Of a stretch of 64,000 bases of DNA, positions 21,738 through 43,700 are shown piece after piece. The position numbers were made by a program, and so were the translations under genes. Position 1 is the first letter of the stretch, and each line of letters starts with the position of its first letter. The notes beneath the pieces are model-generated. The model had not been told where the DNA came from. It did not search any database and was given only the letters and a program-made list of their open reading frames with translations. Source of the stretch: Tepidiforma bonchosmolovskayae. Its GTDB lineage: Bacteria; Chloroflexota; Dehalococcoidia; Tepidiformales; Tepidiformaceae. Where the stretch lies: the NCBI RefSeq assembly GCF_008838325.1, contig NZ_CP042829.1, positions 2,046,001-2,110,000 of the forward strand, read 5' to 3'.

Positions 21738-22759
21738 AGGCGCACCTCGTCGAGAAAGAGTCCGAACCCGTACCGGTAGACCGGGTGCCCGCCCCCAGCT
21801 TCCGGCGTCACGTCCGCCAGCCCGCCACCCGGCCCGCTGCCGCCGAGGTACGAACCTTCGGCCAGCATCGCCACCCGCCGGGAGCGCCATCCGTTCCATG
21901 CCTCGGAGGCGATCCAGCCGCCGCGCTCGACGACGCGGTATCCCCGGGTCTCGTCCAGCTCGAATGCGCCTGCCGCCAGGTCCGCCGGTGACGGCCAGCA
22001 GAGCGAAAGGGTCGGGCCCGCCGCCGGGTTCGCGGTGACCGGTAGCTCGCACGCATGGGGGCCAAGGAGTTCGAACCGGCCCATGCCGCTCGAGCGCTCC
22101 CCGCCGATCCCGGCCTCCCCAAGCACCCGGAGGCAGATGGTGAGGTGCTCGCGCACCGCCTCGTCTGCCACCAGCGCGACTACCCCCGGAATGACCCTCG
22201 ATGCCGTTCCGTTTGAGCTCCCGGGCGGTGCGAAGTGGGTCGCCGCCGACTCGTACAACGCCGACGCGCCCGACCGGCGGTCGACCGTCACTCGCGACCT
22301 CGACTGCACCTCCCAGGGCCGGGCCAGCTCATGGCCATCTAAACCGGCGCCCAGCAACTCACCGAACCGCCTCGGCTCCCGGGAGCTTCCCTCCGCCCCG
22401 AACAGCCACCGGTACGCGGCCCTATCAATGAAGGACACCTGCCGAAGCAATTTTCGGTCGTCGAGCTGGCGGACCGGCTTGCGGACCGGGAGCGGGAAGA
22501 AAATCTCCCCCGGCCCCGAGTCGTCCCACCGGACCGGCAACATGCTCGAAATCCGCAGCTGCGGCTCCGGCGACTTCAGCCCGTCCAGCAGCCGCTGCAG
22601 GGCTTCGTTGCCGAACACCGCCTTCGTCGCCCAGCAGAGCGCTCCAAAGAGCGTGTCCGAGGCAGCCAAAGCCCGCGCGCGGTCGATGTCCTCCGCGTGC
22701 GAGCCGAGCCGCAGTGGCGCTCGCGGCTGAAGCCCGAAGACCCAGGCAGTCGCGGGCAT
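21734..22759 (-). CDS. csm4: Type III-A effector subunit Csm4
   Basis: A RAMP-fold subunit that binds Cas10 and the crRNA 5' handle. The 341-residue protein starts with a beta strand and APLRLGS loop (residues 13-19), has SDTLFGALCWA (typical Csm4), and the RAMP glycine-rich loop GIGGERSSGMGRFELL in its second half. The C-terminus is VYRYGFGLFLDEVRL. It starts 3 nt after the csm3 stop and overlaps csm5, so it is tightly coupled within the operon. Confidence 0.9.
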   Translation of the reverse strand: MPATAWVFGLQPRAPLRLGSHAEDIDRARALAASDTLFGALCWATKAVFGNEALQRLLDGLKSPEPQLRISSMLPVRWDDSGPGEIFFPLPVRKPVRQLDDRKLLRQVSFIDRAAYRWLFGAEGSSREPRRFGELLGAGLDGHELARPWEVQSRSRVTVDRRSGASALYESAATHFAPPGSSNGTASRVIPGVVALVADEAVREHLTICLRVLGEAGIGGERSSGMGRFELLGPHACELPVTANPAAGPTLSLCWPSPADLAAGAFELDETRGYRVVERGGWIASEAWNGWRSRRVAMLAEGSYLGGSGPGGGLADVTPEAGGGHPVYRYGFGLFLDEVRL

Positions 22760-22761
22760 GG

Positions 22762-23550
22762 CTACGCAGTCGCCCAGGCGACCAGGTCAGCGAGGCCCTT
22801 CCGCAGGTCGGCAACGCTCTCGTAGACCGCGGGTCCCTCCCCCGGGATCAGCTGCTGGCCGTCGACCTTCAGCCGGCGCACCGAGATGTTCTTGAACGCG
22901 ACCCTCCCCGAGCCGCGTGCGCCCGATGAGCCGAGCGCATCAGCCTCCAGCAGCTCGAGCCCATCGGCCAGCCATTGCAGCGCTGTGGCGACATTGTCGC
23001 CCTGGTAGACGAACAGGCCGATCTCGCACGGCCCGAACTCCGACCCTGCGGGGACACGCTCCATCGTGCGCGGGACCGCCGCGGAGGTAACCCGGTCGAT
23101 CGCTGCCTCCGATTTCAGCTCCGTGAACGGGAGGTCCGTCGCCGCCTCCATCAGCCGCTCCACCGAAGCCGGGGTAAGGAAGGTGTCCGAGAATCGGAGC
23201 CGCGTCTGGCAGAGCCACCGCTCCTGCGGCGCCGGCGCGCCGAACAGCTGGCAGAGCGTGCAGTTTGCGTAATCCTTTTCTCCTTTGCAGGCGTGGACGC
23301 GGACGCGGTCCCCATGAATCGGCCAGTTCTGGTCGAGCCCGTGAACCCGCTCCAGGAGCGACCGCATCTTCCCTTTTATTGATGAGCCGGGGATGTAGGG
23401 CTGCCGCGTCAGCGGGTCGCGCACCACCGGGTTGTCGACGCCCCCGATCGTCAGCGATGCCTCCTGGGCGCCGATGCGCAGTCCCGTCCGGGCAATGAGG
23501 GTCGAGCGTATGGTCAGAATTCCAGTGATAACTGCAGCGTTTTCACTCAT
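22762..23550 (-). CDS. csm3: Type III-A backbone subunit Csm3 (target RNA nuclease)
   Basis: The repeated backbone subunit that lines the crRNA and cuts bound target RNA every 6 nt. The true start is MSENAAVITG at 23550, overlapping the csm2 stop by 8 nt; upstream codons in the same frame are antisense of csm2. The product has 262 residues. Visible motifs are RTGLRIG, the YIPGSSIKGKMRSLLE segment, a zinc-type CTLCQLFG motif and TFTDTF-like RLRFSDTFLTP, where the Asp is the expected cleavage residue. The glycine-rich GSSGARGSGRVAF loop is at the C-terminal side. Confidence 0.92.
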   Translation of the reverse strand: MSENAAVITGILTIRSTLIARTGLRIGAQEASLTIGGVDNPVVRDPLTRQPYIPGSSIKGKMRSLLERVHGLDQNWPIHGDRVRVHACKGEKDYANCTLCQLFGAPAPQERWLCQTRLRFSDTFLTPASVERLMEAATDLPFTELKSEAAIDRVTSAAVPRTMERVPAGSEFGPCEIGLFVYQGDNVATALQWLADGLELLEADALGSSGARGSGRVAFKNISVRRLKVDGQQLIPGEGPAVYESVADLRKGLADLVAWATA

Positions 23551-24022
23551 CCTTTTTTTCTTCCGGAAGATATGCAACAACAGCTTCGAAGAACTCGACG
23601 AACCTCCTGAATCGCTGTTCTTCCTCATGAGGGTCATCATGTTTTAACTGGCGAATCATAGCGATAAGAGCTGACGCGATTTCGCCAAGGTTTTGCTTCT
23701 CCCTTTGTGCTCTCTTAGTCTGATAAACCAGCCTCGGCTCGAGAAGCCTCGCCCTGCGCAGTGCCCGTGCCCGGTCCTGGTCGAGCAGGAAATCGATCCG
23801 TCGCGCCTCGCCGTAGAGGCGCCGTACCGAGGTGCGCGTCGCGCCGGAGTTCTTCGCAAGCTCCTCCGCCAGGCTGATCAGGGCCTCCACCTCGCCGCGA
23901 ACAATGATTTTTTCAGCCGCTGACGCGAATCTCGACGCGTCGACCGCAGCTGCCCGGCCCTGCTGCTGCGCCCCGCGGTTGCCCTGGTAGCCTCCCTGGC
24001 CCGGCCGTTGATACTGCGTCAT
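23543..24022 (-). CDS. csm2: Type III-A small subunit Csm2
   Basis: The small helical subunit of the Csm complex. ATG 24022 is chosen because AGGAGGT is 8 nt upstream; a GTG 6 nt earlier is too close. It has 159 residues. The first 25 are Gln/Gly-rich and probably disordered (YQRPGQGGYQGNRG). The rest is all-helical with the typical Csm2 pattern LAEELAKNSGATRTSVRRLY and a C-terminal RFVEFFEAVVAYL. The 5' end overlaps the cas10 stop region. The longer disordered N-terminus is unusual for Csm2. Confidence 0.85.
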   Translation of the reverse strand: MTQYQRPGQGGYQGNRGAQQQGRAAAVDASRFASAAEKIIVRGEVEALISLAEELAKNSGATRTSVRRLYGEARRIDFLLDQDRARALRRARLLEPRLVYQTKRAQREKQNLGEIASALIAMIRQLKHDDPHEEEQRFRRFVEFFEAVVAYLPEEKKDE

Positions 24023-24024
24023 AC

Positions 24025-26421
24025 TCACGCACCTCCTGTCCGTCGTCTCTGTTCCGTGTCGCCATCGCTGGCCGTCCGCAGCTCGGCAAGCCGGGCCGCG
24101 AGCGCAACACGCCGGCCCCCCGGCTCGCCGTCAGCCGCCGGTTCAAACGCCGCCTTGCGCAGGTCCATCAGCACCTCCTCCGCGTCCCGGTGGTCCCTCG
24201 CCACCCGGTTCAGCTGGTAGTACGAGCGCCAGATCAGCGGCTCGTAGCGGCCCGGCGCAGCCTTTTCCAGCAGCTGCAGGTGCTGAAGCGCCCGCCGGGC
24301 GAGCTGCTTCTTGTCGTCCTGCCCTCGGACAAGCTCGACAAGCTTCTGCTCATACGCTCGCACCGTCTCGAATCCCGGCCACTTCAGCCACACATCCAGT
24401 GCGACAAGCGCGTTCTTCGCCTCGGCGCCGTTCGGCCGCTGACCCTTCGCCGCCCGCAGCGCCTCCTCGGCAGCCTCGATTCCGGCCTGCACCGGCCGAT
24501 GCGCATGTGCGGCCACCACGCCCGCCGAGAAGTGGAGGTCATCGTTTCCGGCGGTCCACCGCGTGAACTCCTGCCGCAGCTCGCTTGCGAAATCGAGCAC
24601 ATCGAAGAGCGGCCCTGCCAGTGCGACATCGTCGCCGCCGCTAAACACCAGGTAGATGTTCCGGAACCGCTCCGCTGCGAGCTCCGGAAGGTACGCTTCG
24701 AAAAACAGCGAAAGCGCCGTACTCACCGCCAGGAACCGTGACGGCGACGGCGGCCGTTCCGTGAAGTACTGCTGCAGGAACAGACCGAGGTCGTCGACGT
24801 CGGCCTTCATCGTTGCGATTAGCTTCCGCCCCTCGCCCTGCTCGGCAATCTCCTCGAAGTCGAGCAGCCCATCTCTGGATCGCGGCGCATACCGGCCCGT
24901 CGCCACGAGCCGCGCACACGGGAGCTTCTTCAGCCCCTCGGAATCCAGGGCGATGACCGCCCCTCGCACCACCCGCTCCGGCGGCCTGTCCGTGAGCTCC
25001 ACCCGGTGGCCGAGCTCGGCCATCACCTTTCGCCACCCGCTCAAACGTTCACCCGGCCCCGCGGGCTCCAGCAGGACAAACTTCGAATCCAGCAAAGCCC
25101 GGCCCAGGTCCTCGAGCGACGCGCAAAACTCGCACACCCTCCGCTCCACCCCGTCGTCATCCTCGACGCGCCCGCCAATCGCCTCCCGGCCGCACGTCCT
25201 GCACGCCCGGCCCATCGAGGCCACCGCCTGCGGCCGGAACAGCTCCCCGCTCCGCGCCAGCGCTTCGAACTTGCGGGACTTCCGCACCGAAAGCGCCTCG
25301 CGCAGCTGGCGGTAAACCTCGTGAAACGCCCGGAGCTCCTCACCTGAACACACCAGCCCCGCCAGGTTCAGCGAAAGCCCCGGTCCGTGCGCCGCAACCA
25401 GCACCCGGTCCAGCTCCTCCTGGAGGTCGCGGACCATCCCAACCCGTCCAGCCGGCACGGCGACCACAAACTGGCCGCCGACCACCGAGAACGCACACCA
25501 CGGCGGCACCCCGCAGCGAATGGCTACCCAGCGGGCCGCGACCAGGCTCAGCAACTGTATATAAAAGGAACGGGCCCGCAGGGCCCTGGCCGCCCTCCGG
25601 CTCCCCGTGTCATGGATGAACTCCTGGATCCCTGATGCGTCCCCGGCGACCAGGCCAATCCGTGCCCCGGCCGAATCCTCCGCCCGGCTGCCGTCTGCCG
25701 CCAGGGCCGCGGCGAACGCTCCCGCCAGGTGCAGGTGGGTCGCCAGCGGGATATCCGCCACCGCCGTCATAAACGCCGACGGCACGCCCATCGCGCCCCG
25801 GTACACCGCACCCGTGAGGTGTTCGCTCAGCGCGAGCCAGTCCCCGCCCGACAGTGCCGCCGCCGCCTCCAGCCCCGACCGCAGCCCGTCGAACACCTCC
25901 CCGAAGGCAGCGCGCGCAGAATCGGCATCGCCGGCCCGCAACTGCCCAAAGAGCAGCCGAGAGTCCAGCAGTCCCGGCCGAATGAACACCTCGTCCCGTT
26001 TCTTTGCCAGCGGGTGCAACAGCGCAGGGGCCGACCGACCTCCGTCATGTCCCACTCGGTCATACCGGTCGTCCCGCTCGCCCGCAGAGAGGTGGTCGCC
26101 CAGCACCACCCATCGGACCAGGTCGCCGAGTTCGCCAGCATTCGGCGCATGGTGCAGCGCCGCCGCATCCGCCAGGCCGCGGAACTCCGGCAGCGTCTCC
26201 TTCGCCAGCGTCCCGCTCATCGCCGCATGGGCGTACCGGTACCGCCGTTTGCAGCTGTCGCAATCGTCCCACCGCACCTGGTGCCGTTCCGGCGTCTCGC
26301 AGTCGAAACGCGAAGGCTCCGTCCCGCGCCCCGGCACCTGCGCCCATACCTTGCCCAGGTCGTGGAACAACCCGGCGCAATATGCCCGCAGGGTCTCCTC
26401 CGAAATCTCCCAGGACATCAT
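24025..26421 (-). CDS. cas10: Cas10/Csm1, large subunit of the type III-A complex
   Basis: The large subunit with HD ssDNase and Palm cyclase activities. It has 798 residues. The HD motif is at residues 20-21 (GLFHDLGKVW). A zinc module CRTCGREAIGG ... VCEFC lies around 400-430. The Palm2 active site YLVFSGGDDVALAG has GGDD at about residues 594-597, and a helical domain D4 follows. Both catalytic centres look intact, so target-dependent DNA cleavage and cyclic-oligoadenylate synthesis are predicted. It is the first gene of the operon cas10-csm2-csm3-csm4-csm5-cas6. Confidence 0.95.
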   Translation of the reverse strand: MMSWEISEETLRAYCAGLFHDLGKVWAQVPGRGTEPSRFDCETPERHQVRWDDCDSCKRRYRYAHAAMSGTLAKETLPEFRGLADAAALHHAPNAGELGDLVRWVVLGDHLSAGERDDRYDRVGHDGGRSAPALLHPLAKKRDEVFIRPGLLDSRLLFGQLRAGDADSARAAFGEVFDGLRSGLEAAAALSGGDWLALSEHLTGAVYRGAMGVPSAFMTAVADIPLATHLHLAGAFAAALAADGSRAEDSAGARIGLVAGDASGIQEFIHDTGSRRAARALRARSFYIQLLSLVAARWVAIRCGVPPWCAFSVVGGQFVVAVPAGRVGMVRDLQEELDRVLVAAHGPGLSLNLAGLVCSGEELRAFHEVYRQLREALSVRKSRKFEALARSGELFRPQAVASMGRACRTCGREAIGGRVEDDDGVERRVCEFCASLEDLGRALLDSKFVLLEPAGPGERLSGWRKVMAELGHRVELTDRPPERVVRGAVIALDSEGLKKLPCARLVATGRYAPRSRDGLLDFEEIAEQGEGRKLIATMKADVDDLGLFLQQYFTERPPSPSRFLAVSTALSLFFEAYLPELAAERFRNIYLVFSGGDDVALAGPLFDVLDFASELRQEFTRWTAGNDDLHFSAGVVAAHAHRPVQAGIEAAEEALRAAKGQRPNGAEAKNALVALDVWLKWPGFETVRAYEQKLVELVRGQDDKKQLARRALQHLQLLEKAAPGRYEPLIWRSYYQLNRVARDHRDAEEVLMDLRKAAFEPAADGEPGGRRVALAARLAELRTASDGDTEQRRRTGGA

Positions 26422-26537: not shown

Positions 26538-27779
26538 GTGGCCGTGTCGACCATCCTCCTCGCTACCATCGGCAAGCGCGACCCCTTCCACGAGGGCGAA
26601 CCAACAGGGCCCCTCCGCCTTGCGCGTGAGACGACACCCGACAGGGCGCTCCTGGTCGCCACCGAGGCCGTCCGCCCCCAGGCCGAGGCAACCGCCGCCG
26701 AACTCCAGGCCCTCGGCATCGAGGTCGCCATCGACATCCTCGACGACCTTCGCCGCGGCGTCCCCGACCTCGCAGTCAGCGTTTCCGACCTCCTCCTCGC
26801 CGGGCGCGACCTCGTCCGCCGCCACCCGGAGCTCAAAGAGGCCGAGGTCATCGCCTGCTTCACCTCCGGCACCCCCCAGATGAGCACCGCCTTCACCCTC
26901 GTCGTCCGCTCCCTGCTCCCGGACGCCCGCCACTTCCAGGCCCTGGACCCCTCGCAAACCATCCGCGAGCCCCTGCGCGAGTTCGACCCCGATATCCTGG
27001 GCCACCTCGATGCCCGCGACCGCACCCTCGAGTCGCTCGCCCGGGGCGATGCCGCCGCAGCGGCTGCCTCCGGTGTACCCCTCCTCCACCTTCCATCACA
27101 GGTTCCGCCGCCATGGGACCAGAAGGCCCTCAAAGCCGCCGTCACCATCGCCGAGGCGCTCGCCGCCGTCGAAAACTACCAGCGCCAGTGGCTCGCCCAG
27201 CTCGCCGCCAACATCCCCGCCAGGGCCGGCGGCGTCGACCTCGCCGGGCTCAAAGCCTGGCTCCAGCAGGCGGCAAACGATGACCTCGCCTGGGGCGCCG
27301 AGCTCGGCGCCTGCTTCCTCCGCCTCGACTCCCTCAACCGTCCCACCCAGGCCGTCCTCGTCGCTGCCACCGCAGCCGAAGTTCTCCTCACCGCCGGCCT
27401 CAGGCAATGCGGCATCGACCCCGACGACATCCGCGACCCGGCCCGGTTGCCGTCCGGCTTCAGCGAAGTCGACCTCATGCCCATCGACGGCGGCCGCTGG
27501 CGCATCGAAGGCGCCCAGCGCCGCGCGAAGCTGCTCGAAGCACTCTCCCCCGACTACCGCCGCGCCGTCGAAACGCACGCTGGCGAAACCCTCCGCGCCC
27601 GCCTCGCCGGCGCCCGGAACGACGCCGTCCACAAGGGCCGGCAGGTCCCCAGCGAAAGCCTCGAAGCCGCCAAAGCCTACCTCGAAATCCTCGCCGCGGC
27701 CGTCGGCGCCCCTGCGCCTTCCAGTCTCCCCACAGCCCCCTCGAGTCTCGGTGCTCTTGTCCAGCCATGGCGTTCCTGA
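26538..27779 (+). CDS. csm6: Csm6-like CARF-HEPN ribonuclease
   Basis: A predicted RNase activated by the cyclic oligoadenylate that Cas10 makes. From GTG 26538 the protein has 413 residues (a second GTG at 26544 is possible). The N-terminus is a Rossmann-like CARF domain, starting STILLATIGKRDPF, with the ligand-loop signature ACFTSGTPQMSTAF (around residue 115). The C-terminal half is helical and contains the HEPN R-x4-H motif RNDAVH (Arg360, His365). It diverges from cas10 with a 116-bp shared promoter region. The CARF/HEPN layout, size and position fit Csm6; Csx1 is the alternative. Confidence 0.8.
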   Translation: MAVSTILLATIGKRDPFHEGEPTGPLRLARETTPDRALLVATEAVRPQAEATAAELQALGIEVAIDILDDLRRGVPDLAVSVSDLLLAGRDLVRRHPELKEAEVIACFTSGTPQMSTAFTLVVRSLLPDARHFQALDPSQTIREPLREFDPDILGHLDARDRTLESLARGDAAAAAASGVPLLHLPSQVPPPWDQKALKAAVTIAEALAAVENYQRQWLAQLAANIPARAGGVDLAGLKAWLQQAANDDLAWGAELGACFLRLDSLNRPTQAVLVAATAAEVLLTAGLRQCGIDPDDIRDPARLPSGFSEVDLMPIDGGRWRIEGAQRRAKLLEALSPDYRRAVETHAGETLRARLAGARNDAVHKGRQVPSESLEAAKAYLEILAAAVGAPAPSSLPTAPSSLGALVQPWRS

Positions 27780-27948
27780 CCTGCCCCGTACGGAGGTGTG
27801 CTGCGCTGCCGAGTCTCCACTTACTGGAGCACTTGGCGTTCGATAGATGTAGCAAGTCTCTCGTGGGGCGATTACTAGGTCATACCCAAGGGGTAATCCC
27901 GTGAACCTTGAGCGCTCGGTTGCGCTCTTGCGAACTTAGGCGAATGAA
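27780..27948. other. Gap between the Csm6-like and helicase genes
   Basis: No gene. Base composition becomes AT-richer toward the helicase start, and a small inverted pair TACCC/GGGTA lies near 27885. No clear promoter boxes were found. Confidence 0.4.
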
Positions 27949-30936
27949 ATGCACAGCGCGTTATACTTGCTCGATAAGCTCATTTCATTATGGGATGACT
28001 TTGACCAGAAGCCAGATTACTATCTGCGTGATTTAATTCCTTCGATAATAGCTTATAGAGATCTGAGTAGATTTTCGTTCATAGAAAAGAAATTAATTCA
28101 ACAGTTAAAGTCTCTTATGTCTGAAGAAGAGTGGAACAATCTCGCAAATCTGATTGAGGAGCGGCGGACGGGGAGATTGCATGTCTTGCGGTCAGACAAG
28201 GAGCGCCACTTGGGGGCCAAAAGGGAGCTCCGTCCCCGGGACGAGGAGGAGCTTCGCCTGGAGGCTATATGGCAGCTCCGTCCCCGGGACGAGGAGGAGC
28301 TTCGCCGTTGGGCTGCAGAGGAGCGCCGCCTGCGGGGTGAATGGGAGCGTCGGCGCCGGGAGGAAGCAGAGGAGCGGCGCCGCCGGGATGAAGAGGAGCG
28401 GCGCCGCCGCGAGGAGGAGGAGCGACGCCGTCGCGAGAAGGAGGAGGAGCGGCGGCGTCGTGAGGAAGAGGAGCGGCGCCGCCGCGTCGCTCTCGTTCAG
28501 CGAATTCGGCATGCACTTGAAACAGATTACCTCAATGCTGACCGCGTTTTCGCCAGCGACCCCGACGCCAGCCTGCTCTCGGCTGAAGAATACCGCAGGC
28601 TCAAGGTGGACTTCGTCCGGGAGTGGAGCCGCCGGGAGCTGGGCTTGGAACTCGACGACGAGCAGGCGGCCGCGGTCGCCCTGGCCGCCGGCAATACCCT
28701 GGTCGTTGCCCGCGCCGGCAGCGGCAAGACCACTGCCCTCACGGCGCGCGCCGCATTCCTCCAGAAGCATTGTCGCATCGAGCCACGCGAGCTGCTCCTG
28801 CTTGCGTTCAACCGGGATGCGGCGAACGAAATGAAGAAACGTCTGCGCACGTTCCTCGGCGAGAATGTGCCGCATGTCATGACGTTTCACGCTCTCGCAC
28901 ACGCGATCGTCAAACCACTATCTCGTATCCTCTCTGACCAAAAGGATGAAGATCAGCTCGACCTGAGCAAATTCGTTCAGGATGTCATCGATGACCTCAT
29001 ACGCTCCGAACGGTACGCTGACAGAATTAAGCAATTCATGCTGGCATATTATAAAGAAGACTGGGATCAGATTATCAGAAACAAATTTAATCTTCCTATT
29101 GCCCATTTTTTGGCGTACAGACGATCACTAGAACGGGAGACACTCGCTGGAGAATTCGTCAAGTCATATGGCGAGAAGTTGATAGCTAATATCCTCTTCG
29201 AGCACGGAATAGAATACAAATATGAGAAGCCATTCCGATGGGGCGAAAGTGTTTACCGGCCTGATTTTACCATCTATTTCGACAATCGAAGAGGAGGACT
29301 GATTATCGAATATTTCGGCTTAAAAGGCGAACCGGACTACGATGCGCTCGCTGAAGACAAGATCCGCTACTGGGGTAGCAGACCTCAGTGGAATTTGATC
29401 TATTTTTCTTCTGAAGACATATCCCGGCACGGGCCAGATCGGTTTGCTTCTATACTGCTCGGTGCATTGGACAGATTCGGAATCAGATACCGAAAGCTTT
29501 CAGATCATGAGATATGGGCCAAAGTTAAGCACCGGGCCATCGATAGATTTACAGAGGCGGTAGTCTCCTTTGTGAACAGGGCAAGAGCGCTTGGCGTTAG
29601 TGCTGACGACCTGAGAGAAAAAGTGCTGCACCACAGCTCGATAAGCCAGTTTGAAGCAGACTTCCTGGAGGTCGCCTGCGAGATCTATGATTCATATGTT
29701 GATCGTCTGGCGTCCCAGAATCTCCTGGATTTTCCCGGGTTACTTTGGTCTGCCGTGGAGCGCATCAAAAATGGCGAGACGAGCTTTGTCAGAGATAGAG
29801 GTAGAGAGTCAGGCAATTTGAAGACGATTAAATACGTCCTTGTCGACGAGTTCCAGGATATGAGCACGGCGTTTATCGAACTGTTGTTGGCGATCAAAGG
29901 CGTCTCTGATTCGTCAGGATTCTTCGGCGTAGGTGACAACTGGCAGGCTATTAACAGGTTTGCCGGAGCTGATATCAGATACTTTGGAAACTTTGAGGAC
30001 ATATTTACTTCTCCTTATAAATTCTTGCTGTTAAACAACTATCGGTCAGATGCCAGGATTGTAGAAACGGGAAACGCGATCATGGCCCCATCAGATGAGC
30101 GAGGTGGTGTCGCTGTGTCTCGCCGAGATGGAGAAGTCATGATATTTGATATGGCAAAGTGGCGTTCTCGAGACGCCGAAAAGCAGCGCCACGGTGACGA
30201 CGAAATCACGCCGGCGGCACTGCGTCTGATATGGCACTGTCTCTCTGGCGGTCAAAGGGTGCTGGTGCTGTTCAGGGCCCGGACGATTCCTTGGTATATC
30301 CGGTGGTTGATTGGGCCCGGGGAAAAAGATGGCGTAGAGGCACTGCAGGAACATTTCCGCTCAGCCATTCCAGAGCGTCTGCGAGGAATGGTTACGGTGA
30401 ATACTGCTCATTCCGCGAAGGGTAAGGAAGAGGACGCGGTGATCATTCTGGATGCGCGGGACGGCAGGTTCCCGCTCATTCATCCCCTCTGGGTGACCGG
30501 ACGCGTGTTCGGTGATTCCCTGCTCTCGATCGGCAGCGACGAGCGGCGGTTGTTTTACGTGGCTGCGACCCGGGCGAAGCACGCCCTGTACTTCGTCACC
30601 GACTCCCGGCGGGGCAGCACGTTTCTCGCCGGTGTCCGGTCGCATGCCAACGTCGCAAGCGGAGACTGGCGGAAGCTGGCGGGGCCGCCTTGCGTCGCCA
30701 TTGAGGCAGAAGCGGGGCCAGGTCGCAAACTGTCGCGGTACGGCTTTCGACCTGTGCGTGCAGGGCGGGGCGACGGCGTGTGGCGGAAGGACGTTCCGCT
30801 CGTCGACTTCTCGTGGGATCGAGTGCTGAGCCAGCTCCGTTCGGTCGACCTCCTCGGCGTCCGGGCCATTGATGACGAAGGCAACGTGCTGCACGAGTGG
30901 TCTGCGGGGGTACGCCGCAGTGATGCCGGTGAATGA
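27949..30936 (+). CDS. SF1 (UvrD-like) helicase with charged coiled coil and inserted nuclease-like domain
   Basis: A 995-residue protein. An N-terminal helical domain (1-77) is followed by an extreme Arg/Glu coiled coil (about 78-184), then SF1A helicase motif I ARAGSGKTTA (about 254-263), an inserted domain (about 405-470) with YGEKLIANIL, YRPDFTI and IIEYFG that resembles a PD-(D/E)xK/Vsr-like nuclease as seen in some helicase-IV proteins, motif II VLVDEFQD (about 630-637), and motifs V-VI near VNTAHSAKGKEEDAVI and RLFYVAATRAKHALYF. The third nuclease residue (Lys) is not obvious. Long stretches are AT-rich, unlike the neighbours, so acquisition is likely. It sits between the Csm6-like gene and cas2, and its role there is unknown. 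Confidence 0.82.
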   Translation: MHSALYLLDKLISLWDDFDQKPDYYLRDLIPSIIAYRDLSRFSFIEKKLIQQLKSLMSEEEWNNLANLIEERRTGRLHVLRSDKERHLGAKRELRPRDEEELRLEAIWQLRPRDEEELRRWAAEERRLRGEWERRRREEAEERRRRDEEERRRREEEERRRREKEEERRRREEEERRRRVALVQRIRHALETDYLNADRVFASDPDASLLSAEEYRRLKVDFVREWSRRELGLELDDEQAAAVALAAGNTLVVARAGSGKTTALTARAAFLQKHCRIEPRELLLLAFNRDAANEMKKRLRTFLGENVPHVMTFHALAHAIVKPLSRILSDQKDEDQLDLSKFVQDVIDDLIRSERYADRIKQFMLAYYKEDWDQIIRNKFNLPIAHFLAYRRSLERETLAGEFVKSYGEKLIANILFEHGIEYKYEKPFRWGESVYRPDFTIYFDNRRGGLIIEYFGLKGEPDYDALAEDKIRYWGSRPQWNLIYFSSEDISRHGPDRFASILLGALDRFGIRYRKLSDHEIWAKVKHRAIDRFTEAVVSFVNRARALGVSADDLREKVLHHSSISQFEADFLEVACEIYDSYVDRLASQNLLDFPGLLWSAVERIKNGETSFVRDRGRESGNLKTIKYVLVDEFQDMSTAFIELLLAIKGVSDSSGFFGVGDNWQAINRFAGADIRYFGNFEDIFTSPYKFLLLNNYRSDARIVETGNAIMAPSDERGGVAVSRRDGEVMIFDMAKWRSRDAEKQRHGDDEITPAALRLIWHCLSGGQRVLVLFRARTIPWYIRWLIGPGEKDGVEALQEHFRSAIPERLRGMVTVNTAHSAKGKEEDAVIILDARDGRFPLIHPLWVTGRVFGDSLLSIGSDERRLFYVAATRAKHALYFVTDSRRGSTFLAGVRSHANVASGDWRKLAGPPCVAIEAEAGPGRKLSRYGFRPVRAGRGDGVWRKDVPLVDFSWDRVLSQLRSVDLLGVRAIDDEGNVLHEWSAGVRRSDAGE
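28226..28306 (+). repeat. Two in-frame 33-bp direct repeats inside the helicase gene
   Basis: Identical 33-bp copies at 28226-28258 and 28274-28306, 48 bp apart (16 codons), encode two copies of LRPRDEEELR. They open the charged coiled-coil stretch (to about 28490), itself built of repeated Arg/Glu codons. Unit number could vary by slippage or recombination without shifting the frame. Confidence 0.85.
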
Positions 30937-30990
30937 GCCGCCCGCGCCATCCGCACCGGCGGACCGGTCCGACCCGCATGGTGACGCCAG

Positions 30991-31275
30991 ATGGACGAGC
31001 GCTGGTACGTCGTCGCCTACGATATCCCCGATACCCGCCGGCGCGAAGCCCTCGCCGCCTGGCTCGAGGGATGGGGAGAGCGGGTCCAGCGGAGCGTCTT
31101 CGAATTTGAGCTCCGCCCTGCTGAATTCGCCCGGATGCTCGCCGGCATCCGCACCCGCATCGACCCTGCAGCCGACCAGGTTCGGGTCTACCACCTCGGC
31201 GCCCGAGGCTATCGGTCGATCGAAGTCCCGGCCGGCCCGCCGGCGCGGCCGCGGCCCAGGTGGTTCATCGTGTGA
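30991..31275 (+). CDS. cas2: CRISPR adaptation protein Cas2
   Basis: Cas2 pairs with Cas1 to integrate new spacers. The 94-residue protein begins MDERWYVVAYDIPDTRRR with the conserved Asp11, contains RVQRSVFEFEL, and has a ferredoxin-like pattern throughout. No Shine-Dalgarno is obvious before the ATG at 30991, and the gap to the helicase is 54 bp. No cas1 was found in this window on either strand, so a partner must be encoded elsewhere or adaptation is lost. It lies directly before the leader of array 2. Confidence 0.93.
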   Translation: MDERWYVVAYDIPDTRRREALAAWLEGWGERVQRSVFEFELRPAEFARMLAGIRTRIDPAADQVRVYHLGARGYRSIEVPAGPPARPRPRWFIV

Positions 31276-31380: not shown

Positions 31381-33035
31381 GTTGCAACCCTCGAATCCCC
31401 GCTAGGGGACTGAAACTTGGACCTGTGGACCTCCTCCATCAGGGGGCCTGGGGTTGCAACCCTCGAATCCCCGCTAGGGGACTGAAACTTGGGCGTAATG
31501 GTCAGCCAATTCGGGCCGGCCGGAGTTGCAACCCTCGAATCCCCGCTAGGGGACTGAAACCGGCACCATTCCGCCGGCTCCATCCAGTCCGGCAGCACCA
31601 CGTTGCAACCCTCGAATCCCCGCTAGGGGACTGAAACCGCGATTCTTCCAGCTGGATTTCAGCCAGTTTTTGTTGGTAGTTGCAACCCTCGAATCCCCGC
31701 TAGGGGACTGAAACCGTGGAATGTCGCGTGGCCACGCACGGTCACCAGCGCCGATGTGTTGCAACCCTCGAATCCCCGCTAGGGGACTGAAACTCAACCG
31801 CCGTTTTGTTCGCGATCGGGATCCTCTGAACCTTCCTGAGTTGCAACCCTCGAATCCCCGCTAGGGGACTGAAACAGCTGCAGGACGTTCAGCCACCGCG
31901 GGCCAGCGGCGTCGTTGCAACCCTCGAATCCCCGCTAGGGGACTGAAACATGCCAGGGGCACCCCTAAGGAGAACATTGAGATCCTCCCTAAGTTGCAAC
32001 CCTCGAATCCCCGCTAGGGGACTGAAACTGTACGAACAGGTCCGCGAGGCTATCGAGGACTATTACTAGTTGCAACCCTCGAATCCCTGCTAGGGGACTG
32101 AAACTGCGACAAGATCCTTTACTGGCGCAGTCACCCAGCCGAAGTTGCAACCCTCGAATCCCCGCTAGGGGACTGAAACACGTTTAGATCCTCCTTAAGG
32201 GCAATGGTGATGTTGGTCTTAAGGTTGCAACCCTCGAATCCCCGCTAGGGGACTGAAACTGGTATTCGCGGGCCAGCCCTGTGCCCAGTTCGTAGTCAAG
32301 GGGTTGCAACCCTCGAATCCCCGCTAGGGGACTCAAACATCGTGACCCACGACGGCTGCTCGCCGGGCGAGATGAGGTTGCAACCCTCGAATCCCCGCTA
32401 GGGGACTGAAACCTGTCAACATCGGTGATGGCGTCGACGACAGATGCCCAAGAGTTGCAACCCTCGAATCCCCGCTAGGGGACTGAAACTCAACCGCCGT
32501 TTTGTTCGCGATCGGGATCCTCTGAACCTTCCTGAGTTGCAACCCTCGAATCCCCGCTAGGGGACTGAAACCGAGGAGCATCTGCCAGCTCGAGGCGTCG
32601 AAGTCGACCTTCTGTTGCAACCCTCGAATCCCCGCTAGGGGACTGAAACCGAGGAGCATCTGCCAGCTCGAGGCGTCGAAGTCGACCTTCTGTTGCAACC
32701 CTCGAATCCCAACTAGGGGACTGAAACAACTTCAAGGCCGCCCTTCCCGACAAGCTCGGCGATCGAGGGAAGTTGCAACCCTCGAATCCCCGCTAGGGGA
32801 CTGAAACGCCACGATGACGTCGGCGGTGGAGACCTCCTCCAGCAGTTGCAACCCTCGAATCCCCGCTAGGGGACTGAAACTCCCGCAGGAGCGGGCCGAT
32901 GGCAGAGGGGCTGCCCTCGATGTTGCAACCATCGAATCCCCGCGAGGGGACTGAAACCCGTAGATTGGTGACAACTGCCACACTCCCGATGCGGGAGTAG
33001 TTGCAACCCTCGAATCCCCGCCAGGGGACTGAAAC
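31381..33035 (+). CRISPR. CRISPR array 2, 22 repeats of 36 nt, with duplicated spacers
   Basis: The repeat differs from array 1 at positions 10 (A to C) and 23 (G to T): it starts GTTGCAACCCTCGAATCC and ends TAGGGGACTGAAAC. Repeats begin at 31381, 31453, 31525, 31602, 31679, 31758, 31840, 31914, 31993, 32069, 32144, 32224, 32303, 32377, 32454, 32536, 32614, 32692, 32772, 32845, 32922 and 33000, with spacers of 36-46 nt. Repeat 21 (32922) is exactly the array-1 type; repeats 10, 13, 18 and 22 carry small changes. Spacers 31794-31839 and 32490-32535 are identical, as are 32572-32613 and 32650-32691. Transcription is rightward, as in array 1. Confidence 0.97.
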
Positions 33036-33155: not shown

Positions 33156-33437
33156 TCTGGCGGCCTGACGCCGCTCGCTGCGCCGGTACGCCTGGACTGC
33201 ACCAGTGTTCTTCTCTTCATCGGTAACCTGCCCGGACCCGCCCGCGTTATAGGGCTGTACTCTGAGCGCTTCCGAGAGGCCGCCGTTGACGGCGGGGATT
33301 TGACGATGTTCCTCCCCGACTGGCCATTCGGGCTTGCCAAGGCCACCGATGGCCAGGAGTACATCGCCATCAAAGACGGGTTGCCGACCACCCTCACGTC
33401 TCTCCCGCCAATCTCCCTACCCGACCTGCCAGAGTAA
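33156..33437 (+). pseudogene. 5'-truncated homologue of the gene after array 1
   Basis: The open frame ending at TAA 33435-33437 reads ...LTMFLPDWPFGLAKATDG... and aligns with the C-terminus of the 186-residue protein at 19236-19796, including the invariant DWPFGLAK. At DNA level 24 of 26 bases match (19680-19705 versus 33318-33343). The frame is closed by a stop at 33153, and no N-terminal half or start is found, so this is a remnant. It lies 120 bp after the last repeat of array 2, mirroring the position of the intact gene after array 1. Confidence 0.75.
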
Positions 33438-33750: not shown

Positions 33751-36700
33751 GTGAAACTCGAGGACCTCACACCCAACGCCGTCATCCGAGGCATTTCGCC
33801 CGGTGGTCTCGTCACGGTCATCAACGTCCAGTGGCACGGCTCCGATGCCCTCACCCTCGTGTACCGCACCGCGGACGGCAAAGTCGCCGACCGCCTCCTC
33901 TACCGCGAGGACGAACCGGACCTCGAACTCGTTGAAGCCGGCCGGCCATGGAGCTTCGATGGCGACGGCGCAACCTACCGGCTTGCAGCCGAGGCCCATC
34001 GCATCCGTCTCGCCCACCTTTTCGACCCCGTACTCGCCGTTCACACCTCGCTGGTCGATCCCTTGCCCCACCAGATCACCGCTGTCTATGAAACGATGCT
34101 GCCCCGTCAGCCGCTCAGGTTCGTTCTCGCGGACGACCCCGGCGCCGGCAAGACCATCATGGCCGGCCTCCTCATCAAGGAGTTGATCGCCCGCGGCGAC
34201 CTCCAGCGCTGCCTCATCGTCTGCCCCGGCAGCCTCGTCGAGCAGTGGCAGGACGAACTCTCGCGCCGCTTCAACCTTCCCTTCGAAATCCTCACCAACG
34301 ACAAGCTCGAAGCAGCCCGCACCGGCAACTGGTTCCTCGAAAACGACCTCGCCATCGCCCGCCTCGACAAGCTCTCCCGCAACGAAGAGGTCCAGCAGAA
34401 GCTCTTCGCCCAGGACAACCGCTACGACCTCGTGGTCTGCGATGAAGCCCACAAGCTCTCGGCAACCTACTTCGGGGGCGAGGTCCAGTACACCAAGCGC
34501 TACCGGCTCGGCCAGCGCCTCTCCGAAATCACCCGTCACTTCCTCCTGATGACGGCAACGCCCCACAACGGCCGGGAAGAGGACTTCCAGCTCTTCATGG
34601 CCCTCCTCGATGGCGACCGCTTCGAAGGCCGGTTCCGCCAGGGCGTCCACCAGGTCGATGTCTCCGACCTCATGCGCCGCATGGTCAAGGAGGACCTCCT
34701 CACCTTCGAAGGCAAACCGCTCTTCCCCGAGCGCATCGCCTACACCGTCCCCTACCAGCTATCCGACGACGAGGCCTTCCTCTACCAGCAGGTGACCGAA
34801 TACGTCCGCGGGGAGTTCAACCGTGCGGAGGCGCTGAAGAACAACAAGCGCGCCGGCACCGTCGGCTTCGCCCTCACCATCCTCCAGCGGCGCCTCGCAT
34901 CCTCGCCCGAGGCCATCTACCAGTCACTCAAGCGCCGGCGGGAGCGCCTCGAGAAGGAACTCAGGGAGCAGGAGCTCCTCGGCCGCGGGCGCGCGGTCGC
35001 CCTCAGCGTGGCCGATACACTGCTCGATGAGGACGCTATCTCAGACCTCGAGGACGCCCCCGACAACGAGGTCGCGGAGGTCGAGGAGCGGGTCCTCGAC
35101 CAGGCAACCGCGGCCCAGACCGTCGAGGAGCTGCGGCGCGAGATCGAGACGCTCCAGCGCCTCGAAGACCTGGCGGCCCGGGTCCGCCGGAGCGGGAGAG
35201 ACACCAAGTGGCGCCAGCTCTCCGAACTCCTCCAGGAGATCTTCACGGACCGTGCCTTGAGCGGCACGGCACGCGAGGAGACCGCCCCCTACGACGGGCG
35301 GCCCCTCCCGGCGCCCGTCGCCTCGCCGAACCAGAAGCTCGTCATCTTTACCGAACACCGTGACACCGTCCGGTACCTCGAGGAGCGCATCGCGACGCTC
35401 TTCGGACGCCCCGACGCGATCGCCGTCATCCACGGCAGCATGGGCCGTGACGAGCGGCGCAACGCCCAGGAGCGCTTCCTCCACGACCCCGCAGTCCGCG
35501 TCCTGCTCGCCACCGACGCCGCCGGCGAAGGCATCAACCTCCAGCGCGCTCACCTCATGGTCAACTACGACCTGCCGTGGAACCCGAACCGCATCGAGCA
35601 GCGCTTCGGGCGCATCCACCGCATCGGCCAAACCGAGGTCTGCCACCTGTGGAACCTCGTCGCCTCCGAAACCCGCGAAGGCGACGTCTACCGGCGGCTC
35701 CTCGAAAAACTCGACGAGGCCCGCAACGCCCTCGGCGGCAAGGTGTTCGATGTCCTCGGCAAGCTGCAGTTCGAAGGCCGGCCCTTGCGCGAACTCCTGA
35801 TCGAGGCCATCCGCTACGGCGACCGCCCCGAAGTCCGCGCCCGGCTCGACACCGTCATCGAGCACGCGGTCGACCCCGCCCACCTCCGTGAACTCCTCGA
35901 AGAGCGCGCCCTCGCCCACGACGCGATGGATTCGAGCCGGGTGGCCCGCATCCGCGAGGAGATGGAGCGCGCCGAGGCCCGCCGGCTCCAGCCGCACTAC
36001 GTCGAATCGTTCTTCCTCGAAGCCTTCCGCCGCCTCGGCGGCGTCGTTCGCGAGCGGGAGCCGCGCCGCTACGAGGTCACCTACGTGCCGGCCCAGGTCC
36101 GCAGCCGCGACCGCCAGATCGGCCGCGGCGAACCGGTGCTCCCGCGCTACGAACGGATCACCTTCGATAAGGAGCTCATCACCGACCCCGGCAAACCGCT
36201 CGCGGCCTTCATCTGCCCCGGCCATCCCCTTCTCGATGCCACCATCGACCTCGTGCTCGAACGCCACCGCGACCTGCTGAAGCGCGGCACCGTCCTGGTC
36301 GACGAGCGCGACCACGGCACCAGTCCGCGCGTCCTCATGGTCCTCGAACATGCCGTCCAGGACGCCAGCCTCCTGCCCTCCGGCGAGCACCGCACCATCT
36401 CCCGGCGCCTCCTCTACGTCGAAATGGACGCCGAAGGCCAGGCCCGCCACCTCCAGTACGCCCCGTACCTCGACTACCGCCCGCTCGCTGACGACGAGCC
36501 TTCCCCCGACGACCTCCTCGCCCGCCCCGAGTGCGCCTGGATCGGCGCCCACATCGAGGCCGTCGCCCGGAACCACGCCATCGCGACCGTCGTGCCCGAG
36601 CACGTTCGGGAGGTTCGCGACCGCCGCATCGAACTCGTCGAAAAGACCCGCGCCGCGGTCCACGACCGGCTGACGAAGGAGATCGCCTACTGGGACTACC

Positions 36701-37332
36701 GCGCCGAGCAGCTTGCCCTCGACGAGCAGGCCGGCAAACCGGCGGCGCGGATGAACTCCGTGGAGGCCCGCCGGCGGGCCGAAGATCTGCGCCTCCGGCT
36801 CCGGCGCCGCATCGAGGAGCTCGACCGCGAGGCCAGGGTCTCAGCCCTGCCCCCGGTCGTTCTCGGCGGCCTCGTCGTCGTGCCCATCGGCCTCCTCGCC
36901 GCCATGACCGGCCGCCCCTACCCCCTGCCCGCTCCCGCTGTCGATACCGGGGCCGCTGCCGCCCTCGGACGCCGGCTCGTCATGGACGTCGAACGGAAGC
37001 TCGGGTACGACCCCGTCGACCGCGAGTCCGACAAACTCAGGTACGACATCGAAAGCCGGGTCGTCTCCGGCCCGGAGCGCGGCCGCCTCCGCCTCATCGA
37101 GGTCAAGGCCCGCGTCGCCGGCGCCGATACGGTTACCGTCACCCGCAACGAAATCCTCACCAGCCTCAACAAGCCCGACGACTACATCCTCGCCCTCGTC
37201 GAACTCCACGCCGATGGCGGCCATCGCGTACGCTACCTGCGCCGCCCCTTCCGGCGCGAGCCCGACTTCGGCGTCACCAGCGTGAACTACGACTTCGCCG
37301 AACTCCTCGCCCGCGCCGAGGAACCGCGGTAG
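33751..37332 (+). CDS. SNF2-family helicase with DUF3883-like C-terminus
   Basis: A 1193-residue SF2/SNF2 DNA translocase. GTG 33751 follows AAGGAG by about 8 nt. Motif I is DDPGAGKTIMAGLL (about 128-141), motif II VVCDEAHKLSA (DEAH about 231-234), motif III LLMTATPHNG, and motifs V-VI ATDAAGEGINLQRAH and RIEQRFGRIHRIGQ (around 590-630). A long charged middle and a C-terminal DUF3883-like domain follow (about 1085-1185: RLRLIEVKARVAGADTV and TRNEILTSLNKPDDY), a fold with nuclease-like EVK residues. It leads a cassette with a DNA methyltransferase and a DUF499 ATPase, typical of defence islands. It is not DrmD for certain, since other DISARM genes are absent. Confidence 0.88.
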   Translation: MKLEDLTPNAVIRGISPGGLVTVINVQWHGSDALTLVYRTADGKVADRLLYREDEPDLELVEAGRPWSFDGDGATYRLAAEAHRIRLAHLFDPVLAVHTSLVDPLPHQITAVYETMLPRQPLRFVLADDPGAGKTIMAGLLIKELIARGDLQRCLIVCPGSLVEQWQDELSRRFNLPFEILTNDKLEAARTGNWFLENDLAIARLDKLSRNEEVQQKLFAQDNRYDLVVCDEAHKLSATYFGGEVQYTKRYRLGQRLSEITRHFLLMTATPHNGREEDFQLFMALLDGDRFEGRFRQGVHQVDVSDLMRRMVKEDLLTFEGKPLFPERIAYTVPYQLSDDEAFLYQQVTEYVRGEFNRAEALKNNKRAGTVGFALTILQRRLASSPEAIYQSLKRRRERLEKELREQELLGRGRAVALSVADTLLDEDAISDLEDAPDNEVAEVEERVLDQATAAQTVEELRREIETLQRLEDLAARVRRSGRDTKWRQLSELLQEIFTDRALSGTAREETAPYDGRPLPAPVASPNQKLVIFTEHRDTVRYLEERIATLFGRPDAIAVIHGSMGRDERRNAQERFLHDPAVRVLLATDAAGEGINLQRAHLMVNYDLPWNPNRIEQRFGRIHRIGQTEVCHLWNLVASETREGDVYRRLLEKLDEARNALGGKVFDVLGKLQFEGRPLRELLIEAIRYGDRPEVRARLDTVIEHAVDPAHLRELLEERALAHDAMDSSRVARIREEMERAEARRLQPHYVESFFLEAFRRLGGVVREREPRRYEVTYVPAQVRSRDRQIGRGEPVLPRYERITFDKELITDPGKPLAAFICPGHPLLDATIDLVLERHRDLLKRGTVLVDERDHGTSPRVLMVLEHAVQDASLLPSGEHRTISRRLLYVEMDAEGQARHLQYAPYLDYRPLADDEPSPDDLLARPECAWIGAHIEAVARNHAIATVVPEHVREVRDRRIELVEKTRAAVHDRLTKEIAYWDYRAEQLALDEQAGKPAARMNSVEARRRAEDLRLRLRRRIEELDREARVSALPPVVLGGLVVVPIGLLAAMTGRPYPLPAPAVDTGAAAALGRRLVMDVERKLGYDPVDRESDKLRYDIESRVVSGPERGRLRLIEVKARVAGADTVTVTRNEILTSLNKPDDYILALVELHADGGHRVRYLRRPFRREPDFGVTSVNYDFAELLARAEEPR

Positions 37333-37349
37333 GCAGGAGAAACGCAGCC

Positions 37350-37601
37350 ATGTCGCAAATCGACATCACCGTGCCCGATGCCCCCTTCGCACCGCTCCGA
37401 AAGGCGCCGCACGAGCTCGCCGCTCGGATGCAGCACGCGGCAGCCATCCACTGGTACCAGCAGGGCCTCCTGTCGATGGAGCGGGCTGCCGAGGCCGCCG
37501 GAAGGGGCCGGGCAGAGTTCCTGGCCGAACTCGCACGTCGTCGCGTCGACGTCTTCTCGCTCGACGAGCGCGACCTCGCCCGGGAGCTCCAGGGTGCCTG
37601 A
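37350..37601 (+). CDS. UPF0175-family antitoxin-like protein
   Basis: An 83-residue protein with the UPF0175 pattern: helix with AAIHWYQQGLLSMERAAEAA (about 32-51), RAEFLAELARRRVDVF and a C-terminal tail. Such proteins are usually paired with a downstream PIN-like DUF3368 toxin. Here the gene overlaps a collapsed DUF3368 remnant, so the antitoxin is effectively an orphan. It lies 18 bp after the SNF2 helicase stop and upstream of the methyltransferase, inside the defence cassette. Confidence 0.7.
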   Translation: MSQIDITVPDAPFAPLRKAPHELAARMQHAAAIHWYQQGLLSMERAAEAAGRGRAEFLAELARRRVDVFSLDERDLARELQGA

Positions 37602-37810
37602 GGTGCTCGTCATCGACGCCTCGCCCGTTCGTGCGCGCTGGCGCTCCGGTATCCCGGTCATGGAAACGGTTGGAATCGTGGCCCTGGCCCGGCGGCCCGG
37701 GGGTGATCCCGGACGCACGCCCCGTGCTGCTCACACTGCGGGCTGCCAGCATCTGGCTTTCCGACGAAGTCATCGCAATGGCGGTGCGCATTGCCGGCCT
37801 GGAAACGTGA
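37594..37810 (+). pseudogene. Collapsed DUF3368 (PIN-like) toxin remnant
   Basis: The first frame, from GTG 37594, reads VLVIDASPV, the standard N-terminus of DUF3368 PIN-like proteins. After roughly 30 codons the family similarity jumps to the +1 frame, where [13 protein letters not shown] and [20 protein letters not shown] end at TGA 37808-37810, the family's normal C-terminus. The family is about 150-170 residues, whereas only about 72 codons lie between the ends, so most of the core is deleted and the frame is broken. The toxin is almost certainly inactive. Confidence 0.7.
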
Positions 37811-37820
37811 GGAGCAAACC

Positions 37821-40700
<2,880 letters not shown>

Positions 40701-40715
40701 TCCAGGAGGTCCACC

Positions 40716-43700
40716 ATGGCGATGACCAACCAGGAACGCGTCGGCAAAGCGCTTGAACTGCTCCGGCAGGGGCTCGCCCCCTGGATCGAGCGCGAATGCC
40801 AGCGGAAGTACGGGAAGTACTGGGTCACGAAGGTCTCCGAGACCTGGAAGAACGACCTGGTCTGGACCGACGAAAACACGCCGGCCCTCGACGCCGCCGT
40901 CCTCCTCCGCGTCATGTGGGAGCAGTGGAACGACGTCTTCCGCGATACCCTCGGCCACGCCGAGCGCAGCCTCGTCTCCGAAATCCGGACGTGGCGGAAC
41001 AAGTGGGCCCACCAGGAGCCGATCTCGAGCGACGACGCCGACCGCGCCCTCGACTCGATCCAGCGCCTCCTCACCGCCGTCTCCGCGCCCGAGGCCGACG
41101 AAGTCGAACGGATGAAGCTCGAGCTGCGCCGCACCATGTTCGACCAGCAGCTCCGCGCCGAGAAGCGCCGCGCCGGCGGCTCGCTCATCGAGCCCGCGGC
41201 CGCGAGCTCCCTCCGCCCCTGGCGCGAGATCGTCGTGCCCCATCCCGATGTCGCGAGCGGCCGCTACCAGCAGGCCGAGTTCGCCGCCGACCTCTGGCAG
41301 GTCCACCTCGGGGAGGGCGCCGACGAGTACCGCGACCCGGAGGAGTTCTTCCGCCGGACCTACCTGACCGAAAGCCTCCGCCGGCTCCTGGTTGGCGCGG
41401 TCCAGCGCCTTTCGGGCACCGGCGGCGACCCCGTCGTCCAGCTCCAGACCAACTTCGGCGGCGGCAAAACCCACTCCATGCTCGCGCTCTACCACCTCTT
41501 CTCCGGCGCCAACCCGGCCTCCCTGTCCGGCGTCGACGGCGTCATGGCCGAGGCGGGCGTCACGAAGCTCCCCGCTGTCCGCCGCGTCGTTCTCGTCGGC
41601 AACAAAATCTCGCCCGGCAATCCCGCGACCAAACCGGATGGAACCAGGGTGCACACGCTCTGGGGCGAACTCGCCTGGCAGCTCGGCGGCCGCGAGGCCT
41701 ACGAGCGCATCCGCGCTGACGACGAGCGGGCCACGAACCCCGGCGACGTGCTGCGCGAGCTGTTCAGGGAGTACGGGCCCTGCCTCGTCCTCATCGACGA
41801 ATGGGTCGCCTACGCGCGCCAGCTCCACGACGAGGGCGACCTCCCCGCGGGCAGCTTCGAAACGCAGTTCACCTTCGCGCAGGCCCTCACGGAGGCCGCG
41901 AAACTCGCCGGCAACTGCCTGCTCGTTGTCTCTCTCCCCGCCTCCGACACGCAGGGGTCGCCGCACACCCAGGCTGACGACGTCGAGGTCGGCGGCACGC
42001 GGGGCCGCGAGGCGCTCGAACGGCTCCGGAACGTCATCGGCCGGCTCGAATCCTCCTGGCGTCCCGCCTCCGCCGAAGAGGGCTTCGAAATCGTGCGGCG
42101 CCGGCTCTTCCAGCCGATCGACGACCCCGAGAAGTTCACCCAGCGCGACCTGACCGCCCGGGCCTTCGCCGACCTCTACCGCGCCAGCACCGCCGAGTTC
42201 CCGCCCGAATGCCGCGAGGCCGACTACGAGAAGCGCATCCGCGCGGCCTTCCCCATCCACCCGGAGGTCTTCGACCGGCTCTACACCGACTGGTCGACGC
42301 TGCTGAAGTTCCAGCGCACCCGCGGCGTCCTCCGCCTGATGGCGGCCGTGATCCACAGCCTCTGGGAAAAGGGCGACAGGTCGCCGCTCATCCTGCCCTC
42401 GACCATCCCCATCGACGACCCCCGGGTCCAGTTCGAACTCACGCGCTACCTCTCCGATAACTGGGTCCCAATCATCGAAAAGGACGTCGACGGCCCGAAC
42501 TCCACCCCTGCCAGGATCGACGCTGAGGTGACGAACCTCGGCAAGTATGCAGCGACCCGCCGGGTGGCGCGCACCATCTACCTTGGGTCGGCGCCGACCG
42601 CCGCGACCGCCCATCGCGGCATCGAGGACCGCCGCGTCAAGCTCGGCTGTGTCATGCCCGGCGAGCCCCCGGCCGTCTTCGGCGATGCCCTCCGCCGGCT
42701 CGCCGCCGCCGCGACCCACCTCTACCAGGACGGTGCTCGCTTCTGGTACTCCACTCAGCCCACCGTGACCCGGCTCGCCGAAGACCGCGCCGAGCAGCTC
42801 ACGCGCGAACCCGACCGCGTCGCTGAGGAGCTGGAGCGCCGCGTGCGCGACGACCTCCGCGACCGCGGGGAGTTCCCCCGCGTCCATCCCTTCCCGCGTT
42901 CGTCCGCCGACGTCCCCGACGAACGAGAGGCCGGGCTGGTTGTCCTCCCTGCCGACTACTCCCACACCAAAGATGGGGAGAGCCAGGCGATCCTGGCGGC
43001 GCGCGGCATCCTGGAGACGCGCGGAAACGCGCCGCGCCTCTTCCGCAACACGCTCCTCTTCCTTGCCGCCGATAAGGTCCGCCTCCAGGACCTCGACGAA
43101 GCCGTCCGGCGCTACCTCGCCTGGAAGTCGATCCTTGACGAGAAGGAAACCCTGAACCTCGAACCGCTCCAGGTGCGCCAGGCCGAGGCCCAGCTCAAGG
43201 CTGCCGACGAGACGGTTAGGGCGCGGCTTCCCGAAACCTTCTGCTGGCTCCTCGTCCCCGAACAGAAGCGTCCGGATGCCCCGGTCGAATGGCGCGCCGT
43301 GCGCCTCTCCGGCAGTGAGGCCCTGGCAGCCCGCGCCGGCAAGAAGGCCCGCGCCGAAGAACTTCTGCTCGGAAGCCTCGGAGGAACGATGCTCCGCACC
43401 TGGCTCGACCGGGTGCCGCTCTGGCGCGGTGACCACGTCTCGCTCCGCCAGCTCGCCGACGACTTCGCCAGCTACCTGTACCTGCCGCGTCTCAAAGGCC
43501 CCGCAGTGCTCGCGAACGCCGTTGCGGGCGGCATCGCGCTCCTGACCTGGGCGAACGATACCTTCGCCTACGCCGAAAGCTTCGACGAGGCCTCCGGGAG
43601 GTACCGAGGGCTCCAGTTCGGGCAGGCCATCTCCCTGCCGCCCGATGCTGCCGGGCTGGTCGTCCGGCCGGAGGCCGCACGCCGGCAAATCGACGCCGAG

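Follow-up and report, generated by a model that had tools for sequence, protein, structure and literature searches.

CRISPR array 2 of Tepidiforma bonchosmolovskayae, in the 64,000-nt stretch of DNA that we analysed (hereafter the window), contains two pairs of identical spacers, and both are very probably copies of repeat-spacer units that were made after acquisition through misalignment of the 36-nt repeats, by recombination or slippage. The duplications are ordinary in themselves and add one further case of a known process.

Two pairs of identical spacers in array 2

Repeat scans placed array 2 at 31381-33035 on the forward strand, with 22 repeats of 36 nt and 21 spacers of 36-46 nt. The array begins about 100 nt downstream of the end of cas2, and cas2 together with the leader upstream suggests that position 31381 is its leader side. 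String comparison confirmed both of the identical pairs reported in the original prediction. Spacer 6 (31794-31839) and spacer 15 (32490-32535) are the same at 46/46 nt and are separated by eight spacers (7-14), and the neighbouring spacers 16 (32572-32613) and 17 (32650-32691), on the same forward strand, are the same at 42/42 nt. Spacer 15 sits directly before spacer 16, so one copy of the distant pair does immediately precede the adjacent pair, as had been noticed. Chance is ruled out as the source of identity over 42-46 nt. A search for further within-array pairs with a common 20-mer found none among the 21 spacers of array 2 or the 18 spacers scanned in array 1 (17700-19115, forward strand), which has no duplicated spacer, and when all spacers were aligned without gaps, none of the matches listed linked array 1 to array 2.

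The extent of the identity was then read directly from the sequence. Including the flanks, the maximal exact match of the distant pair is 118 nt (starting at 31758 and 32454) and corresponds to a repeat, the spacer and the next repeat; the adjoining bases differ on both sides and the flanks beyond the repeats are unrelated. The maximal exact match of the adjacent pair is 97 nt (32536 and 32614) and runs through a repeat and the spacer and 19 nt into the following repeat. Both matches thus stop at the end of a repeat or inside one, as repeat-mediated exchange predicts. Pair 16/17 has the form of a tandem unit duplication, in which identical spacers are adjacent and the match ends lie in repeats, and pair 6/15 has that of a distant ("rearrangement") unit duplication, in which an identical unit is found far off between unrelated flanks.

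The repeat that follows the adjacent pair, repeat 18 (32692-32727, forward strand), indeed carries the mutation that had been pointed out: two neighbouring bases, at repeat positions 20-21, are changed from the consensus CG to AA. This change is absent from repeat 17, and the mutated repeat 18 is compatible with a one-unit duplication of spacer 16/17. Either CG to AA is older than the duplication, in which case its absence from repeat 17 puts the exchange point no further than 19 nt into the repeat, or it arose only after the duplication. The distant pair is flanked by consensus repeats only, and no mutation marks an exchange there.

Another variant, repeat 21 (32922-32957, forward strand), is identical to the array-1 repeat at both diagnostic bases although it stands within an array of another repeat type. 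It is perhaps another exchange footprint in array 2, and may be taken as a sign of exchange between arrays 1 and 2 or of a common ancestral array. We also observed a 31-nt stretch that recurs downstream of array 1 (19675-19705) and downstream of array 2 (33313-33343) with 94% identity, which hints that both array regions may be old copies of one another.

Origin of the duplicated units

From these match ends we infer a mechanism in which 36-nt repeats, misaligned during replication or recombinational repair, would lead to the copying of repeat-spacer units. In the adjacent pair, a repeat would pair with its neighbour and produce a one-unit tandem duplication with the order R-Y-R-Y-R(AA). The original prediction held that this pair fits unequal crossover; duplication of one unit by repeat misalignment is indeed the best reading, but a single sequence does not distinguish crossover from replication slippage. 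The distant pair would be a one-unit transfer. It could have been made by duplication of a nine-unit block followed by loss of eight units, or in one step, if break repair copied R-X-R so that spacer 6 was placed at position 15 or the reverse. Both the two-step and the one-step history fit. As for function, the duplicates would probably provide only a higher dose of two crRNAs.

The same arrangement would also result if each repeated spacer had been captured twice from one protospacer, the distant one at a different time or by ectopic insertion within the array. Repeated sampling of a hot protospacer is conceivable, and ectopic integration inside arrays is known from type II-A systems of Streptococcus, where it likewise yields an out-of-order spacer inside the array (PMC7999890). 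The spacers reported there, however, are new ones in type II-A systems, whereas those seen here are very probably copies of resident spacers in a type III-A system. Spacer lengths are variable in the arrays of the window and of a same-genus genome, L025 (35-47 nt, 81 spacers), such that two random spacers are equal in length with a probability of 0.11, and only three of these 81 spacers are 46 nt long, two of them being spacers 6 and 15. Because the copies of each pair share both start and end despite this variation, two independent captures are unlikely. In addition, the adjacent pair would need two identical captures in succession, and intact cas1 is gone from the locus, though the events may precede its loss. 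In a published set of array groups, reacquisitions and independent insertions account for only 15 of 805 duplication candidates (PMC11472070). Taken with the match ends, these points make double capture improbable.

It was also proposed that one larger rearrangement moved a unit and produced both pairs, for example a compound event with template switching across several units. The position of spacer 15 immediately before pair 16/17 speaks for such an event. When one tandem and one non-adjacent pair were placed randomly among 21 positions, however, a copy of the latter flanked the former in 630/3078 cases (~20%), so that a common event is not needed for both pairs; separate events, each of a known kind, are enough. 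The proposal is thus unsupported by the adjacency, and we regard a single compound event as unlikely. CRISPR arrays can be misassembled with short reads, and duplicates in a repetitive stretch may in principle be an assembly error. The genome, however, is a single contig of 2,746,948 bases, and the ~80-nt units are anchored by unique sequences: spacer 6 is flanked by the unique spacers 5 and 7, spacer 15 comes after the unique spacer 14, and the unique spacer 18 comes after pair 16/17. Neither array 1 (18 spacers) nor the two arrays of L025 (42 spacers) contain duplicates, and an assembly error is very improbable.

Copying of repeat-spacer units, the reading that we prefer, is also in line with what is known of other arrays. 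In the public array groups analysed with SpacerPlacer, 805 of 24,090 spacers (3.3%) are given as duplication candidates, comprising 695 simple duplications, 43 rearrangements, 8 reacquisitions, 7 independent insertions and 52 others, and 171 of the 333 groups are without any candidate (PMC11472070). At the rate of 3.3%, 0.69 candidates are expected among 21 spacers and the probability of at least two is 0.15, when each pair is counted as one candidate; two duplications per 21 spacers are thus not unusual against the rate reported for that set. As described for that set, the same spacer found twice in one array is mostly attributed to duplication; SpacerPlacer, however, places events on trees of related arrays (PMC11472070), and no overlapping array was found here. 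A published tree-building tool also favours duplication, with penalties given as 1 for a duplication and 50 for an independent acquisition (PMC10457644).

A close likeness is to the Mycobacterium tuberculosis complex, in whose type III-A array single units were copied in tandem or far off. Among 198 isolates, 16 tandem and 4 far-away duplications are reported, three of the latter four being single units (e.g., DVR35 between 41 and 42), and the same report gives new spacer acquisition in 0/198 isolates, that is, none seen in this type III-A array (PMC7708916). Both forms of copy found here are therefore already known. Unlike array 2, for which one genome was analysed and repeats and spacers are unbroken throughout, the M. 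tuberculosis array was compared across the 198 isolates, with IS6110 insertions described as a main driver (PMC7708916).

Related arrays and protospacers

The array repeat, searched with up to 3 mismatches, was found in three of the six genomes of the genus, this one counted. Comparison of spacer order in sister strains had been suggested as a check on the duplications, but the two same-genus genomes bearing related arrays, L025 and L026, have no spacer in common with this one. Among 118 spacers (39 here, 42 in L025 and 37 in L026, 8 of the latter being largely N), no match between different genomes was listed. A partial repeat sought in 400 genomes from the phylum matched only this genome, the two repeat-bearing same-genus genomes being outside the draw.

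No duplicated spacer was found among the 42 spacers in the two arrays of L025. In L026, an array of 29 spacers contains seven pairs with a common 20-mer, none of them adjacent, and in one of these pairs (spacers 12 and 15) the following variant repeat is common to both; these pairs count in favour of unit copying. Several of the L026 pairs differ through small indels or a shifted start. Repeat exchange predicts identical units and these differences count against it, though assembly errors are possible there. The L026 assembly contains 917 N in 18 kb, none within the array holding the pairs, and its Cas1 is broken across two frames; because of the many N elsewhere and the split Cas1, little weight was given to L026.

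A protospacer search for both duplicated spacers, which had also been proposed, yielded no convincing protospacer in viral contigs, phage records, plasmids or genomes. Three exact 20-21-mers and one back-translated pattern per spacer gave 0 matches for spacers 6 and 16 in viral_contigs, and a 24-mer of spacer 6 gave 0 matches in genome_contigs. The single match of a spacer 16 21-mer in genome_contigs, from Singulisphaera, agrees at 31/42 positions over the spacer and was treated as chance. A plasmid search with both spacers returned no match at E 0.1. Across all six genomes of the genus, this one included, 26- and 27-mers with up to 3 mismatches matched the array copies alone.

BLAST against phage records gave only weak matches. 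Spacer 6 matched one record, in the portal gene of Streptomyces phage Frankenweenie (E 0.8), and spacer 16 matched three: two of Clavibacter phage CN1A (E 0.2) and one of Streptomyces phage Spocter, in a hypothetical gene (E 0.7). The CN1A match is annotated as terminase large subunit in one record and as exonuclease in the other. Translated from its reverse strand, spacer 16 agrees with it in frame (DFDAWSWDVL vs DFDASSWQML), a weak hint that spacer 16 may lie in a gene of this kind. A back-translated scan of viral_contigs made from this reading found nothing.

The type III-A locus and its cas1 remnant

Arrays 1 and 2 flank an operon of cas10/csm1, csm2, csm3, csm4, csm5 and cas6 (19855-26421, minus strand; Pfam and NCBIfam) and a CARF-type (Csx1/Csm6-like) gene (26538-27779, forward strand) that is 80% identical to its L025 counterpart. 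The profile matches of Csm1 (E 5e-124), Csm3 (4.3e-62), Csm4 (1.1e-47) and Csm5 (4.4e-23) are all above the curated cut-off and Csm2 matches with E 7.3e-15. The presence of cas10/csm1 with csm2-csm5 identifies the locus as type III-A.

A cas1-cas2 pair beside the array is frequent in type III-A loci but not required. Here cas2 is full-length (30991-31275, forward strand; Pfam PF09827; 91% identical to L025 cas2), and of cas1 only the last 46 nt including the stop codon are present (30939-30984, forward strand), coding for 14 residues that equal the end of L025 cas1. The order in L025 is CARF gene, cas1, cas2 and array. Alignment with L025 stops after window position 27781 and restarts at 30939 (L025 14891 and 15876), so that 3157 nt stand here in place of 984 nt of the L025 layout, a stretch that takes in 911 of the 957 cas1 nucleotides. 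According to Pfam and the alignment ends, the replacing segment (27782-30938) holds, at the place of L025 cas1, a gene for a UvrD-family helicase of 995 residues (27949-30936, forward strand). The segment has a G+C content of 0.55 compared with 0.68 for the window, and relatives of the helicase in the five other genomes of the genus are only distant (best E 5e-12). No stretch of at least 8 nt is common to the surroundings of the two segment ends (27740-27960 vs 30880-30995). Replacement of cas1 by an unrelated gene is less expected than the spacer duplications.

The only Cas1 match of the genome (E <= 0.001) is at 1019479, 1 Mb away, in a frame of 573 residues. In this region (1019479-1020324 and its surroundings), Cas1 is possibly fused to another domain, and a peptide that recurs among the listed ORFs suggests that an array with a different repeat lies beside it. 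The leader before array 2 is 79% identical to the L025 leader over 98 nt; loss of acquisition, if real, has thus not erased the leader. Array 2 may now change by recombination only. One tentative and still doubtful interpretation is that the locus is a frozen type III-A memory, in which the helicase gene replaced cas1 and ended acquisition, array 2 is now altered only by repeat recombination, and the duplications were made in a system that copies and shuffles but no longer learns. The cas1-less locus here and the intact cas1-cas2-array order in L025, with its 42 spacers and no duplicates, form a natural comparison that could show how an array behaves once acquisition stops.

The spacers of the window and L025 have a strand bias. 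With two duplicates removed, the 81 spacers leave 79 distinct ones, and for 60 of these the better coding score falls on the strand that opposes the array (p 4e-6). In 200 shuffles the mean was 39 and the maximum 52, and the classifier was right on 1332/1800 held-out coding pieces. In array 2 alone, 12 of 19 spacers score better as coding opposite to the array, and the bias is absent from L026, where 15 of the 27 distinct spacers without N do so. The bias in the window and L025 fits crRNAs that are antisense to transcripts, a property reported to be under selection in type III immunity (PMC7515739).

Downstream of array 2, at 33751-44045, three genes match the PADLOC models HmaA, HmaB and HmaC (1674, 1196 and 1141 bits), the HmaB match starting only at model position 222. 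These genes may constitute a further defence system beside array 2.
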